A DNA stretch of 64,000 nucleotides, taken from Elusimicrobiota bacterium (GTDB lineage Bacteria; Elusimicrobiota; Elusimicrobia; UBA1565; UBA9628). The stretch is taken from contig DAIDHI010000069.1 in the NCBI GenBank assembly GCA_027452025.1, positions 48,267-112,266 on the forward strand, given 5' to 3'. The notes below the pieces were generated by a model that worked only from the letters and a program-made list of their open reading frames with translations, was not told the origin of the DNA and did no database searches. The translations under genes were made by a program, and so were the position numbers. The stretch's first letter is position 1. Every line of letters starts with the position of its first letter. This document shows, one piece after another, positions 21,198 through 25,558 of this stretch.

Positions 21198-21268
21198 CTG
21201 GGGGTGTCAGACGTTGACTTGTTGACTTGCGGTCGACAAGTCAACAAGTCAACGTCTGACACCCCCAG
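21198..21268. repeat. Perfect long inverted repeat, 32-bp arms, 7-nt spacer
   Basis: CTGGGGGTGTCAGACGTTGACTTGTTGACTTG-cggtcga-CAAGTCAACAAGTCAACGTCTGACACCCCCAG; arms are exact reverse complements. Confidence 0.97.
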
Positions 21269-21277
21269 GAGGCTCAC

Positions 21278-21715
21278 ATGCCCAAGAATGCGCGAGACAT
21301 CATGACTAAGAATCCCACGTTCTGCACGCCGGACTCGGACCTGAAGTCCGTGGCCGGACTGATGTGCCAGCACGACTGCGGCGAGATTCCCGTCGTCGAC
21401 AGCGAGGAGAGCCGAAAGCCGATCGGCGTCGTCACCGACCGCGACATCGCCTGCCGCACCGTCGGCCAGGGACGCGACCCCTTCGAGCTCAAGGCCCAGG
21501 ACTGCATGTCCAGCCCCGCCGTCACGGTCAGCGAGGACTCGTCGATCGACGAGATCTGCCAGGTCATGGAGGACCATCGGATCCGCCGCGTGCCCGTCAT
21601 CGACGAGACCGGACGGCTCTGCGGCATCGTGGCCCAAGCCGACATCGCCGTCAAGAGCGGCTCGCCGCACCGGGTGCACGAGGTGGTGCGTCACGTCTCG
21701 CAGGCGACGGCATAA
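21278..21715 (+). CDS. Stand-alone two-CBS-domain protein
   Basis: ARDIMTKNPTFCTPDSDLKSVAGLM...PIGVVTDRDIACRTV...RIRRVPVIDETGRLCGIVAQADIA; RBS AGGAGG. Confidence 0.9.
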   Translation: MPKNARDIMTKNPTFCTPDSDLKSVAGLMCQHDCGEIPVVDSEESRKPIGVVTDRDIACRTVGQGRDPFELKAQDCMSSPAVTVSEDSSIDEICQVMEDHRIRRVPVIDETGRLCGIVAQADIAVKSGSPHRVHEVVRHVSQATA

Positions 21716-21718
21716 AGC

Positions 21719-22951
21719 TCAGAACGAGTAGTTGATGTCCATGAAGGCGGCCAGGCCCTCCTGGCCGTAGCCGAAGTCTATGGAGCCTACCACCTGCGGC
21801 CGCGCCACGACGCGCACGGCCGTGCCGAAGGCGGGCCGCACCCAGCGCCAGGCCATGGCCTGCGGCTGCGCGAACACCGTGCCGGCCTCGACGAAGGGCG
21901 CGAGCTCCAGCTCGGTCGCCACGCCGGCCAGCCGGCGGCGGTAGACGAGCACGCGCCGCTCAAGAGAAGCCTCGGCCAGCCCGCGATCGGTGAAGCGGCC
22001 CTCGCCGTAGGCGCGAAGCGTGTATTTTCCCCCGAGCTCCGGCTCCAGCCAAAAGGGCACGGGCGGCCCCGTCATCTGCTCGAAGAGCAGCCGCAGGGCC
22101 GTGACCTGCCGATGGCGGCCGGGACGCTTGAAGAAGCCGCGCAGGTCCGCCCTGTAATCCTGGTACGTATACTCGCTCGCCAGCCCCCTCTGCGCGGTCT
22201 GCGCGGAAAGCTCGGCGTAAAGCCCTTGGGTCGTCGTGATCGCGCTATCGCGGCTGTCGTAGGTCAGGTAGAGGCGGTCGGAGCCGTCCTGATGCCGATG
22301 CCCGGCAACCTCGCTCGGGAACAGTTCGCCGGTTCCCGGCAGCGAGGCGATCGGCCCGTTGCTGATGCGCACGCTTTGCAGGCTCTGTTCCGCGCTTAGA
22401 AAGAGCCGGCGATACAGGGGATAGCCGACGTGCACGAAGTAGCCTAGCCTGTCCTCGGTATAGTCGGTCTGCGCCGACCTGGGCGCGTCGGGCCCGATGC
22501 CGTAAAAGCGGTTCGACCCATCCACGTTCCAGCTCCCTTTGCCGCCCACCCTGAAGCGGCTGCCCTGGAAGCTCAAATCGTCTCCGCGGGCCATCACCTC
22601 GTGCTCGACGACTTGGGACAGCGCGGCCCTTGCCGCGAAGCTGGCATCGGGCTTGGGATAGAAATAATAGCGATAGGTGCCCGTGACGCCGAAGATCGGG
22701 TTGTAGTCGACGGAAGGCGCGTAGATCTCGCGCACGGTCTTGCCCCCTTCGCCCTCAAGCACCCACACCGGCATGACGCCGGTGGTGACGCCGCGGTTGG
22801 GGTCCGTGTCGATGACCGGCAAGAGCAGCAGCATCCCCCGCGGGATCGGGTGGAGGATGGGGCGCAGGATGGGGGGCGGCGGCTCTTCGGGCGCCTGCGG
22901 CCAAGCCGGCGAAGCGGCCGCCCCGAGCAGAAGCAGCAGCGCAAGCGGCAC
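21719..22951 (-). CDS. BamA/TamA-family outer-membrane beta-barrel protein
   Basis: Signal peptide; GTG start; barrel-like repeats, C-terminal ...SIDFGYGQEGLAAFMDINYSF with terminal aromatic residue. Confidence 0.65.
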   Translation of the reverse strand: MPLALLLLLGAAASPAWPQAPEEPPPPILRPILHPIPRGMLLLLPVIDTDPNRGVTTGVMPVWVLEGEGGKTVREIYAPSVDYNPIFGVTGTYRYYFYPKPDASFAARAALSQVVEHEVMARGDDLSFQGSRFRVGGKGSWNVDGSNRFYGIGPDAPRSAQTDYTEDRLGYFVHVGYPLYRRLFLSAEQSLQSVRISNGPIASLPGTGELFPSEVAGHRHQDGSDRLYLTYDSRDSAITTTQGLYAELSAQTAQRGLASEYTYQDYRADLRGFFKRPGRHRQVTALRLLFEQMTGPPVPFWLEPELGGKYTLRAYGEGRFTDRGLAEASLERRVLVYRRRLAGVATELELAPFVEAGTVFAQPQAMAWRWVRPAFGTAVRVVARPQVVGSIDFGYGQEGLAAFMDINYSF

Positions 22952-23023
22952 AGGCCGATTCTAGCGGCCCGCTCGCCCCTCGCCCATGGTCCGCGCGTCA
23001 CGCTTTTGCGTATAATCGGCGCC

Positions 23024-23689
23024 ATGACCCTCGCCCAAGCCTTCCAGGCCGCCGCCGCCGCCGCTTCCTCCCTGCTGCCGCTGGCGCGCATCCCGGTCTC
23101 TCAGGCGCAAGCCGCCCGCGACCGGACTTTCGTCAGCCGCCCCCTCGGCGGCGCCTCCATCCAAGCCGAGATCACGGCCGACGGCTCCGGAGAATTCTGG
23201 ATCCGCCTGCGCCAGGACGGCCGGGACCGGGTCCTGCCTCTGTCGGACCTCGAGTCGTCGGCCCGGCGCGCCTGCTTCGGCGCCGCCTGCTACGCGGTCG
23301 ACCTCGAGCAAAACGACCTGGTCGTGCGGCCCGAGGACGCGCGAAACGGCGAAGCCTCTTTCTCCCTCGACAAGCTCGCCGACGCCGTCTTGGCCAACGC
23401 CCCGCAGGCGCGCTTGAGCGAGGACGTCGTCTACTCCGCGGTCTACGAGCCCGGTCCGACGCCCGGCGCGGGCGCCGTGCTCTGGCACCGGGATCTGTCC
23501 GGCGGCGTCTATATCGCGTATCGCACGCCGCAGGAGCTGGCGTCCAACACCTGGCTCGTCGTCGTCAACGGGATCTATATCGGCGTGCGCCGCGAGGGCG
23601 ACGACCTCGTCTTCTCGGCCAAGCCCGCCGAGCAGTCCCTGGCCGGTCCCATCGGTCTCCGGCGGCAGCGCCGCGTACCGGGGACGTGA
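23024..23689 (+). CDS. Hypothetical protein
   Basis: ATG at 23024 preceded by TATAAT; stop overlaps next start (GTGA). Confidence 0.55.
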   Translation: MTLAQAFQAAAAAASSLLPLARIPVSQAQAARDRTFVSRPLGGASIQAEITADGSGEFWIRLRQDGRDRVLPLSDLESSARRACFGAACYAVDLEQNDLVVRPEDARNGEASFSLDKLADAVLANAPQARLSEDVVYSAVYEPGPTPGAGAVLWHRDLSGGVYIAYRTPQELASNTWLVVVNGIYIGVRREGDDLVFSAKPAEQSLAGPIGLRRQRRVPGT

Positions 23690-25458
23690 CGCCGCCGGAC
23701 AAGCCAAAGTTCATCTTCGACGGCGACTGCGGCTTCTGCCGCCTTTGGGCGCGCGCCTGGCAGGCCCGGACGGCCGGTCGCGTCGACTTCGAACCCCGGC
23801 CTGGCATCCGCGCCTCCCGCCTCGAAGAGCCCGGGCGCGTCAGCGAGGCCGCGCGCGGCGTCTTCGCCCTCCTCTCCTACGCCCCGCACGGAGGCCGAGC
23901 GCTGCGACTCTACGACCGCGTCCCGCCGTTTGCCGCCGCCAGCGAAGCGGCCTACGGCCTCCTCGCGCGGCATCGCGTCCTCGCCGCGCGCGTCACGCGC
24001 CTTTTTTGGGGAGACCCGCGGCCCCGCAGCGTGCTCGCCGCGCGCTGGCTGTTCCTGCGCCTGCTGGGCCTGGTCTACCTGGCGGCCTTCCTCTCGCTGG
24101 GCTCGCAAGTGGCCGGGCTGCTCGGGCCGAGCGGCATCCTTCCGGCCGGGCCTTGGCTCTCGGCCGCTCGACAGGCCTTGGGCGACCGCGCCTACCTGGC
24201 GCTGCCGAGCCTCGCCTGGGCCTTCGGCGCCGGCGACACCGCGCTCAAGGGCCTTTGCTGGGGCGGCGCCGCCGCGGCCGCGCTCGCCGTCCTCGACGTC
24301 GCGCCCGGAGCGGCCTTGCTCGCCAGCTGGGCCTGCTACCTTTCGCTCGTCAACGTCGGCCGCGATTTCCTCGGCTTCCAATGGGACGTCCTGCTGCTCG
24401 AGGCGGGCTTTCTGGCGGTCTTCCTGGCGCCCTGGCGGCTAAAGCCCAGCCTGCGCGACAGCGAACCCTCGCGGGCCTTCGTTTGGCTCTTGCGCTGGCT
24501 GCTGTTTCGCTTGATGCTCGAGTCGGGCCTCGTGAAGCTCGCCAGCGGCGACCCCGCGTGGCGCAATCTGACCGCCCTCTACTACCACTATCAGACGCAA
24601 CCTCTGCCGACCTGGATCGGCTGGTACGCCCATCAGCTGCCCGCCGCCTTCCAGCGCGCCAGCGTGCTCGCGATGTTCGTCATAGAGCTCGGCGTGCCCT
24701 GGCTCATCCTCATGCCGCGGCGGCCGCGCCAGCTGGCCTGCGCGCTGCTGGCCGCCTTGCAGGCCCTCATCGCGCTGACCGGCAACTACGGCTTCTTCAA
24801 CTTCCTGACCATCGCCCTTTGCGTTCTTCTGCTCGACGACGGCGGCCTGGAGCGCTGGCTGCCGCGCTTCGAGCCCCGCCCCCCCGGCCGCCCGTGGCGC
24901 CGGGCCTTCGCCTGGCCGCTCGGAGCCTTCATCGCGGTCTCCAGCGCCCTCCAGTTCGCGCGCTTGCTGCCCGCGCGCCTGCCCGGCGAGGAGGCCGCGG
25001 CGCGGCTGGTGTCGGCCGCCGACGGCTTCCACCTCTGCAGCCCCTACGGCCTCTTCGCCGTCATGACCACGCGGCGGCTGGAGATCTCCGTCGAGGGCAG
25101 CGACGACGGACGGACTTGGAAGCCTTATCGCTTCAAGTGGAAGCCGGGAGACCCCGCCCGCCGCCCCGCGTTTTGCGAGCCGCGCATGCCGCGCCTGGAC
25201 TGGCAGATGTGGTTCGCCGCGCTCGGGCCCTATCAGCAGAGCCCGTGGTATCTCCAGTTCCTGGCCCGCCTGCTCGAGGGCTCGCCGCAGGTCCTCGGGC
25301 TGCTGGCCGACAACCCTTTCCCGAACCATCCGCCGCGCTATCTGCGCTCCCTGGGCTATGAATACCGCTTCACCAGCGTCGCCGAGCGCCGCGCCACCGG
25401 CGACTGGTGGCACCGCAAGCTCCTCGGCCTTTACGCGCCGGTCCTCGAACGAAGATAG
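23686..25458 (+). CDS. Fusion of DCC/DUF393 thiol-disulfide oxidoreductase-like domain with lipase maturation factor-like membrane protein
   Basis: N-term KFIFDGDCGFCRLWARAWQ (DCC/CxxC); remainder LARWLFLRLLGLVYLAAFLSLGSQVAGLLG...DFLGFQWDVLLLEAGFLA...LESGLVKLASGDPAWRNLTALYYHYQTQPLPTWIGWYAHQLP typical of LMF family. Confidence 0.8.
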   Translation: MTPPDKPKFIFDGDCGFCRLWARAWQARTAGRVDFEPRPGIRASRLEEPGRVSEAARGVFALLSYAPHGGRALRLYDRVPPFAAASEAAYGLLARHRVLAARVTRLFWGDPRPRSVLAARWLFLRLLGLVYLAAFLSLGSQVAGLLGPSGILPAGPWLSAARQALGDRAYLALPSLAWAFGAGDTALKGLCWGGAAAAALAVLDVAPGAALLASWACYLSLVNVGRDFLGFQWDVLLLEAGFLAVFLAPWRLKPSLRDSEPSRAFVWLLRWLLFRLMLESGLVKLASGDPAWRNLTALYYHYQTQPLPTWIGWYAHQLPAAFQRASVLAMFVIELGVPWLILMPRRPRQLACALLAALQALIALTGNYGFFNFLTIALCVLLLDDGGLERWLPRFEPRPPGRPWRRAFAWPLGAFIAVSSALQFARLLPARLPGEEAAARLVSAADGFHLCSPYGLFAVMTTRRLEISVEGSDDGRTWKPYRFKWKPGDPARRPAFCEPRMPRLDWQMWFAALGPYQQSPWYLQFLARLLEGSPQVLGLLADNPFPNHPPRYLRSLGYEYRFTSVAERRATGDWWHRKLLGLYAPVLERR

Positions 25459-25481
25459 GTGGTGCCGGAAAGGTGGGAAAG

Positions 25482-25558
25482 GTGGTGCCTGGCTTTAACT
25501 AGTTTAACTTATGGGCCGAATCGGCCCATAAGTTAAACTAGTTAAAGCCAGGCACCAC
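25482..25558. repeat. Perfect long palindrome, 38-bp arms, 1-nt centre
   Basis: GTGGTGCCTGGCTTTAACTAGTTTAACTTATGGGCCGA-a-TCGGCCCATAAGTTAAACTAGTTAAAGCCAGGCACCAC; exact reverse complements. Confidence 0.97.

Follow-up and report, generated by a model that had tools for sequence, protein, structure and literature searches.

The two long palindromes of the window (the whole 64-kb stretch of DNA that was analysed) belong to a family of at least 46 palindromes in this genome, divided among four subfamilies, P1 to P4. Each subfamily matches the TIRs of one of the four Y1 transposase genes that the genome carries, and the palindromes are therefore read as head-to-head TIR dimers that are non-autonomous. 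With a probability of roughly 0.85, they belong, as its non-autonomous members, to a TIRYT-type Y1 (HUH) transposase system (TnpA_REP subclass 2.1).

Two window palindromes and their genomic copies

Within 20.8-26.0 kb the longest inverted repeats, both perfect, lie at 21198-21268 (32-nt arms, 7-nt loop) and at 25482-25558 (38-nt arms, 1-nt gap), and each folds much more stably than its shuffles (DNA z of -12 and -17, respectively). The outermost CTGGG/CCCAG of the former is flanking sequence, as are the extra outer pairs of the latter, leaving elements proper of 61 nt (P1) and 73 nt (P2) that run from GGTG to CACC (Table 1). The original prediction, that the two are diverged members of one modular family, is borne out by the 46 copies and their four subfamilies. 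The match of 7/10 that it gave for the outer 10 nt was reproduced. The internal tandem is likewise present in both elements, with 11/16 matching positions instead of the 12/16 claimed, and its period is 8 in P1 and 9 in P2, which has one extra G, not 8 in both. The proposed 'GG.CGA core' had to be abandoned as a module, given that the centre differs in almost every genomic copy (20 distinct loops, or tips, among 22 P1 copies); that the two window elements resemble each other at the centre probably came about by chance.

Table 1. Features of the window, the four palindrome subfamilies and the Y1 transposase genes of the genome
Feature	Position	Strand	Remarks
P1 element, palindromic TIR dimer GCGGTCGAC	21203..21263	.	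26-nt arms, 9-nt centre; 22 copies in subfamily; covariance-model match 78 bits
P1 constant end box GGTGTCAGAC	21203..21212	+	inverted copy 21254-21263; box common to 3/4 subfamilies, conserved in 94 Y1 TIRs
P1 tandem word GTTGACTT x2	21213..21228	+	inverted copy 21238-21253; same word in TIRs of Y1 gene at G000:C44
CBS-domain gene, neighbour	21278..21715	+	Pfam CBS 3e-29; Shine-Dalgarno AGGAGG adjoins P1
Lipase-maturation-factor-like gene, upstream of P2	23686..25458	+	Pfam LMF1 2e-63
P2 element, palindromic TIR dimer, 73 nt	25484..25556	.	8 copies in subfamily; empty site in three relatives
P2 constant end box GGTGCCTGGC	25484..25493	+	inverted copy 25547-25556; same box in TIRs of Y1 gene at G000:C60
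P2 tandem word TTTAACTA-G-TTTAACTT	25494..25510	+	inverted copy 25530-25546; word or variants of it present in C60 Y1 TIRs and 8 palindromes
Short-chain dehydrogenase gene, downstream of P2	25581..26378	+	Pfam adh_short 2e-48
Subfamily P1			GTCAGAC+GTTGACTTGTTGACTT; 22 copies
Subfamily P2			GCCTGGC+TTTAACTnnTTTAACTT; 8 copies
Subfamily P3			GTCAGAC+TTTCACTTTTCACTT; 8 copies
Subfamily P4			GTCAGGC+CTTGAATTGTTTTCCTT and variants; 8 copies
Y1_Tnp gene C44	C44:58357-58674		TIRs = P1 subfamily
Y1_Tnp gene C60	C60:45409-45732		TIRs = P2 subfamily
Y1_Tnp gene C34	C34:34884-35162		TIRs = P3 subfamily
Y1_Tnp gene C86	C86:96534-96815		TIRs = P4 subfamily

The covariance search proposed with the original prediction, using a model built from the two window palindromes alone (E<=0.01, 3.25-Mb genome), found further members: 89 strand-matches, corresponding to about 44 genomic places, with the two palindromes as the only significant matches in the window. 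A search for the pattern GGTGnCwGnC-N25..55-GnCwGnCACC recovered 46 places; the reversed pattern, used as a control, recovered 1. Besides the 46 dimers, some single TIR arms are dispersed in the genome. Two covariance-model matches, G000:C27:13766-13832 and G000:C40:1-58, fall outside the pattern search, one of them at a contig end. As for a known RNA family, Rfam returned sub-threshold microRNA-type hairpin scores only. Just upstream of P2, at 25459-25493 of the window, AGGTGGTGCC is present twice, approximately 21 nt apart, and may be a truncated older TIR.

Compensatory change, which had been claimed for the two window elements, holds between them and also within P2 and P4, as judged by counting the variable arm cells that are paired and comparing the count with arms reshuffled between copies, a test whose p-values are optimistic because the copies are related. 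Paired cells amounted to 32/32 in P2 (18.4 expected), 60/64 in P4 (44.2 expected), 84/88 in P1 (80.3 expected) and 79/91 in the related genome G025 (69.7 expected); no arm covariation was detected in P3 by the same reshuffling. P2 comprises several distinct symmetric variants with zero one-sided arm changes, and in P1 only 0.7% of arm positions depart from the consensus. The inner bases of the P1 tips resemble one another only somewhat more than random bases would (0.46-0.52 versus 0.36-0.37), and only a few of these tips (GTTTGG, GTTTG) fit, by eye, a derivation from the interior of the C44 element. In two P1 copies (L008 and L012) the tip reads GCGAAGC/GCTTCGC, a sequence that forms a DNA mini-hairpin of unusual stability.

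Transposase genes and the layout of their TIRs

The genome contains exactly four PF01797 (Y1_Tnp, HUH tyrosine transposase) genes, all bracketed by TIRs of 25-28 nt that are unrelated to GTAG REPs, and the fit between genes and palindrome subfamilies is one to one. The Y1/HUH transposase with linked copies that the original prediction had suggested looking for is thus present in four versions. The four proteins (268-280 aa), whose match to PF01797 exceeds the cut-off, possess an HUH motif, a catalytic Tyr within Y---NP and, at the C-terminus, an HTH-like tail; across an alignment of 61 proteins, H60, H62, Y119 and N123 are invariant and P124 is conserved in more than 90%. Pfam matches to the tail are all under the curated cut-offs (C34, HTH_38 at 4e-4 and HTH_23 at 1e-3; C44, HTH_23 at 6e-3; C60, weak HTH_23/Bac_DnaA_C; C86, none), while its alignment columns are conserved and the C-terminus is helical in the predicted model. 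The TnpA_REP structure 4er8 was the best match both in a profile search (E=5e-12) and in a fold search with an AlphaFold model (pLDDT 92.6; E=4e-7), the latter placing the ISDra2 and IS608 transposases next. The Y1 matches include Elusimicrobia/Elusimicrobiota MAGs, which is no proof of the phylum of the host.

A comparison of 94 Y1 elements with detectable TIRs, drawn from many phyla, indicates that the modular layout is general: the TIR end has a nearly invariant box (GKGTCAGRC-like), after which come two element-specific words in tandem, at a period of 7-9 nt. Same-base matches in these TIRs are enriched at lags 7, 8 and 9 (z of 7.2, 8.3 and 5.1) and depleted at lag 10. As an ancestry-aware control, word 1 of one TIR was compared with word 2 of another. 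Identity of at least 6/7 was reached by 43% of the comparisons within a TIR and by 7% of those between TIRs (p about 0.0002), and by 35% and 5%, respectively, after dereplication. Since identity within a TIR lies so far above that between TIRs, the duplicated word changes in concert. In Mantel tests, box distances correlate with those of the HUH domain (r 0.31; partial 0.32) and not with those of the HTH region (partial -0.08), whereas word distances track both HUH and HTH (0.29 and 0.21). The association of word with HTH, given HUH, is weak (partial r 0.13, p 0.001), with phylogeny partly controlled. These comparisons suggest that the HTH tail may help to read the tandem word.

The pattern is present in 17 of the 37 genomes searched, the majority from different genera within this family and order. 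Palindrome sets in four of them (G009, G023, G025 and G031) have their best match in a Y1 TIR from their own genome, with different words, namely TTGAGAA twice in G023, TTCGGAA twice in G025 and CAGAA twice in G031. For some sets in G022, G024, G025 and G009, all incomplete genomes of which G022 and G024 are fragmented, no matching Y1 gene was found. A further kind of repeat, in G009 and G016 (L188-L203), shares the GGTGyCwGrC box and has arms of only 13-16 nt; its total length is roughly constant at 48-52 nt, and its interior of 20-odd bases differs widely from copy to copy.

Relation to known systems and insertion sites

The original prediction knew of no named family with this exact layout; a named family exists, the TIRYT/TIRtron, in which a RAYT-like tyrosine transposase gene is flanked by TIRs unrelated to GTAG REPs; as described in the text of that report, the TIRs form repeat families, some self-complementary and often occurring as dimers (Di Nocera et al. 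2013, PMC3733652). The present elements share with it, as far as that text goes, a RAYT-like gene with non-GTAG TIRs, a dispersed TIR repeat family and dimers. They differ in that the dimers are near-perfect, 53-73 nt long, virtually spacerless and variable at the tip, and in that four subfamilies fit four genes in one genome. The motif GGGGWSAS is given in the text of PMC3733652 for some, not all, TIRYT TIRs; GGTGTCAG fits it at 7/8 positions (P1, P3 and P4), GGTGCCTG at 5/8 (P2) and GGGGTCAG, in many relatives, exactly. Within that text we found no duplicated element-specific word inside the TIR. By their sequences, these elements would constitute a new set of TIRYT-type elements, of a kind already known.

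According to PMC6006769, TnpA_REP subclass 2.1 probably corresponds to the TIRYT of PMC3733652. Proteins of that subclass (Quentin et al. 2018, PMC6006769) likewise have HUH, Y---NP and a long C-terminal tail that is Bac_DnaA_C/HTH_23-like. That study, which reported no REP-like sequences near subclass 2.1 genes, was sceptical of TIR recognition by the tail and did not settle what the HTH tail does, whereas here multicopy palindromes are seen together with a candidate target of the tail, the tandem word. The likeness to REP/BIME-RAYT systems that the original prediction drew is correct as regards the linked Y1/HUH genes and the TnpA_REP-like sequence and fold, and fails in that these are not GTAG-tagged REPs. 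As in the REP/REPIN systems with RAYT of E. coli, Pseudomonas and Stenotrophomonas, the repeats are palindromic, mostly extragenic and linked to a Y1 enzyme, and REPINs are inverted pairs, as are these dimers; the differences are the missing GTAG tag, the identity of the arms with the TIRs of full elements, and the long arms with tandem words. With IS200/IS605 elements (IS608, ISDra2) they appear, on the modelled structure, to share the HUH/Y1 catalytic fold. In those elements, which lack TIRs, the hairpins are subterminal and insertion takes place next to a fixed short target. Neither trait is seen here, where the TIRs are perfect and no flank motif was found apart from a weak A/T at -2 of full elements. 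An exact-letter literature search for the box sequence retrieved unrelated papers only, and none of the open-access papers searched links Elusimicrobi- with REP. Nor did those that were read (PMC3733652 as text) yield a tandem element-specific word and its coupling to protein domains, a one-to-one correspondence of four transposases and four palindrome sets within one genome, or a hypervariable tip.

P2 is an insertion, because its site is empty in three relatives: the spacing of the flanking genes is -4, +5 and -11 nt in these genomes, where the hairpin is absent, and 122 nt here, P2 included. The CBS gene beside P1 also has orthologues in three relatives without a nearby hairpin, a weaker case given that the upstream gene is not conserved there. 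According to a simple codon-usage gene caller, 41 of the 46 copies are intergenic, and a Shine-Dalgarno sequence with start codon directly follows one end in 12/46 copies, against 2.3% of random positions. Several P1 copies (for example at 21258-21278 of the window) immediately precede an AGGAG Shine-Dalgarno, reflecting either target preference or tolerance.

No target-site duplications above chance were observed at the palindrome copies. A motif preceding P1, AGnCTCCTnnG, was set aside, as 3 of 150 shifted-flank sets score equally and it overlaps Shine-Dalgarno sites; no flank motif was found for P2-P4 or, except for a weak A/T at -2, at either end of 92 full elements. We therefore do not claim insertion at Shine-Dalgarno sequences or cleavage at CT. 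By contrast, the cleavage sites of IS200/IS605 and TnpA_REP enzymes are short and defined (PMC8266576). The missing target duplication and the missing consistent flank or cleavage motif count against the TIRYT-type reading, as do the palindrome sets of other genomes for which no matching Y1 gene was found, the weak association of word with HTH and the lack of arm covariation in P3.

Alternative origins and a candidate mechanism

The palindromes might be plain internal-deletion derivatives (MITEs), with a left end joined to a right end and no special copying of arms. The identity of the arms with the TIRs of full elements accords with such an origin, and a 94-nt copy (C67:26533) that keeps one arm of each end type resembles a deletion product. 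In three of the four full elements, however, the ends differ by at least one base, while the dimers are symmetric at those positions, so simple joining of left to right end fails for most dimers. The several symmetric variants of P2 and P4, and P1 tips that differ in nearly all copies despite arms that are 99.3% identical, also speak against plain deletion, which we regard as unlikely. Decidedly less probable is that the palindromes are regulatory hairpins of the host, acting in a 5'-UTR, as terminators or to stabilise mRNA, whose RNA structure is preserved by selection independently of transposases. Their mostly intergenic placement, the 12/46 copies directly before a Shine-Dalgarno and start codon, the covarying arms and the very stable RNA fold are what such a role would produce; if transcribed, P1 of the window is predicted to form a very stable RNA hairpin in a 5'-UTR. 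Yet the neighbouring genes change from copy to copy, the same sites lack the hairpin in relatives, the subfamilies track transposase TIRs and not gene class, and the arms hardly vary in primary sequence, a constancy beyond what a hairpin needs. Least credible of all is a classical RAYT mobilising ordinary REP/BIME elements of the GTAG or CGTC type, even though the transposase superfamily and fold are the same and the palindromes are many and dispersed: a GTAG at the 5' foot of the hairpin, or a CGTC tag, is absent from the listed copies and flanks, box and tandem words stand in its place, and the proteins bear a long C-terminal HTH tail.

The favoured reading, that of a TIRYT-kind Y1 system, permits a mechanism to be outlined. 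The element, in which one TIR is present twice, in inverted orientation and separated by a few nucleotides, would fold into a hairpin when single-stranded, as expected of this transposase class. The HUH/Tyr domain may recognize the constant box and nick near it, and the C-terminal HTH tail would help to read the tandem word, thus giving each transposase its own substrates; the strand would then be moved or copied to a new site. With less confidence, we suppose that one arm is copied from the other by fold-back, a process that would restore exact symmetry and also re-make the tip. Such copying would account together for the symmetric arms and the re-made tips. Between selection and a copying mechanism, the two options offered by the original prediction, the concerted arms and variable tips would point to hairpin-templated copying. 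The complete scheme, a two-part rewritable address in which HUH reads the box and the HTH tail helps to read the concertedly rewritten double word, coupled with renewal of the palindrome by fold-back copying and a tip re-made in every round, is put forward tentatively, as a proposal with rather less than an even chance of being right. If correct, the address would keep several transposase-palindrome sets in one genome apart. Four transposases in one genome, each with its own palindrome set and with its own ends, which hold a duplicated element-specific word, bear on how the long, HTH-bearing Y1 subclass finds its DNA; they bring both the specificity of the HTH tail and the maintenance of perfect palindromes within direct experimental reach.

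One further locus carries P2-type ends without a transposase. At G000:C97:36179-36770 two inverted P2-type TIR arms, the upstream one resembling a decayed dimer, surround a cyclophilin (peptidyl-prolyl isomerase) gene, which is possibly a passenger; the arms may equally represent two separate insertions.
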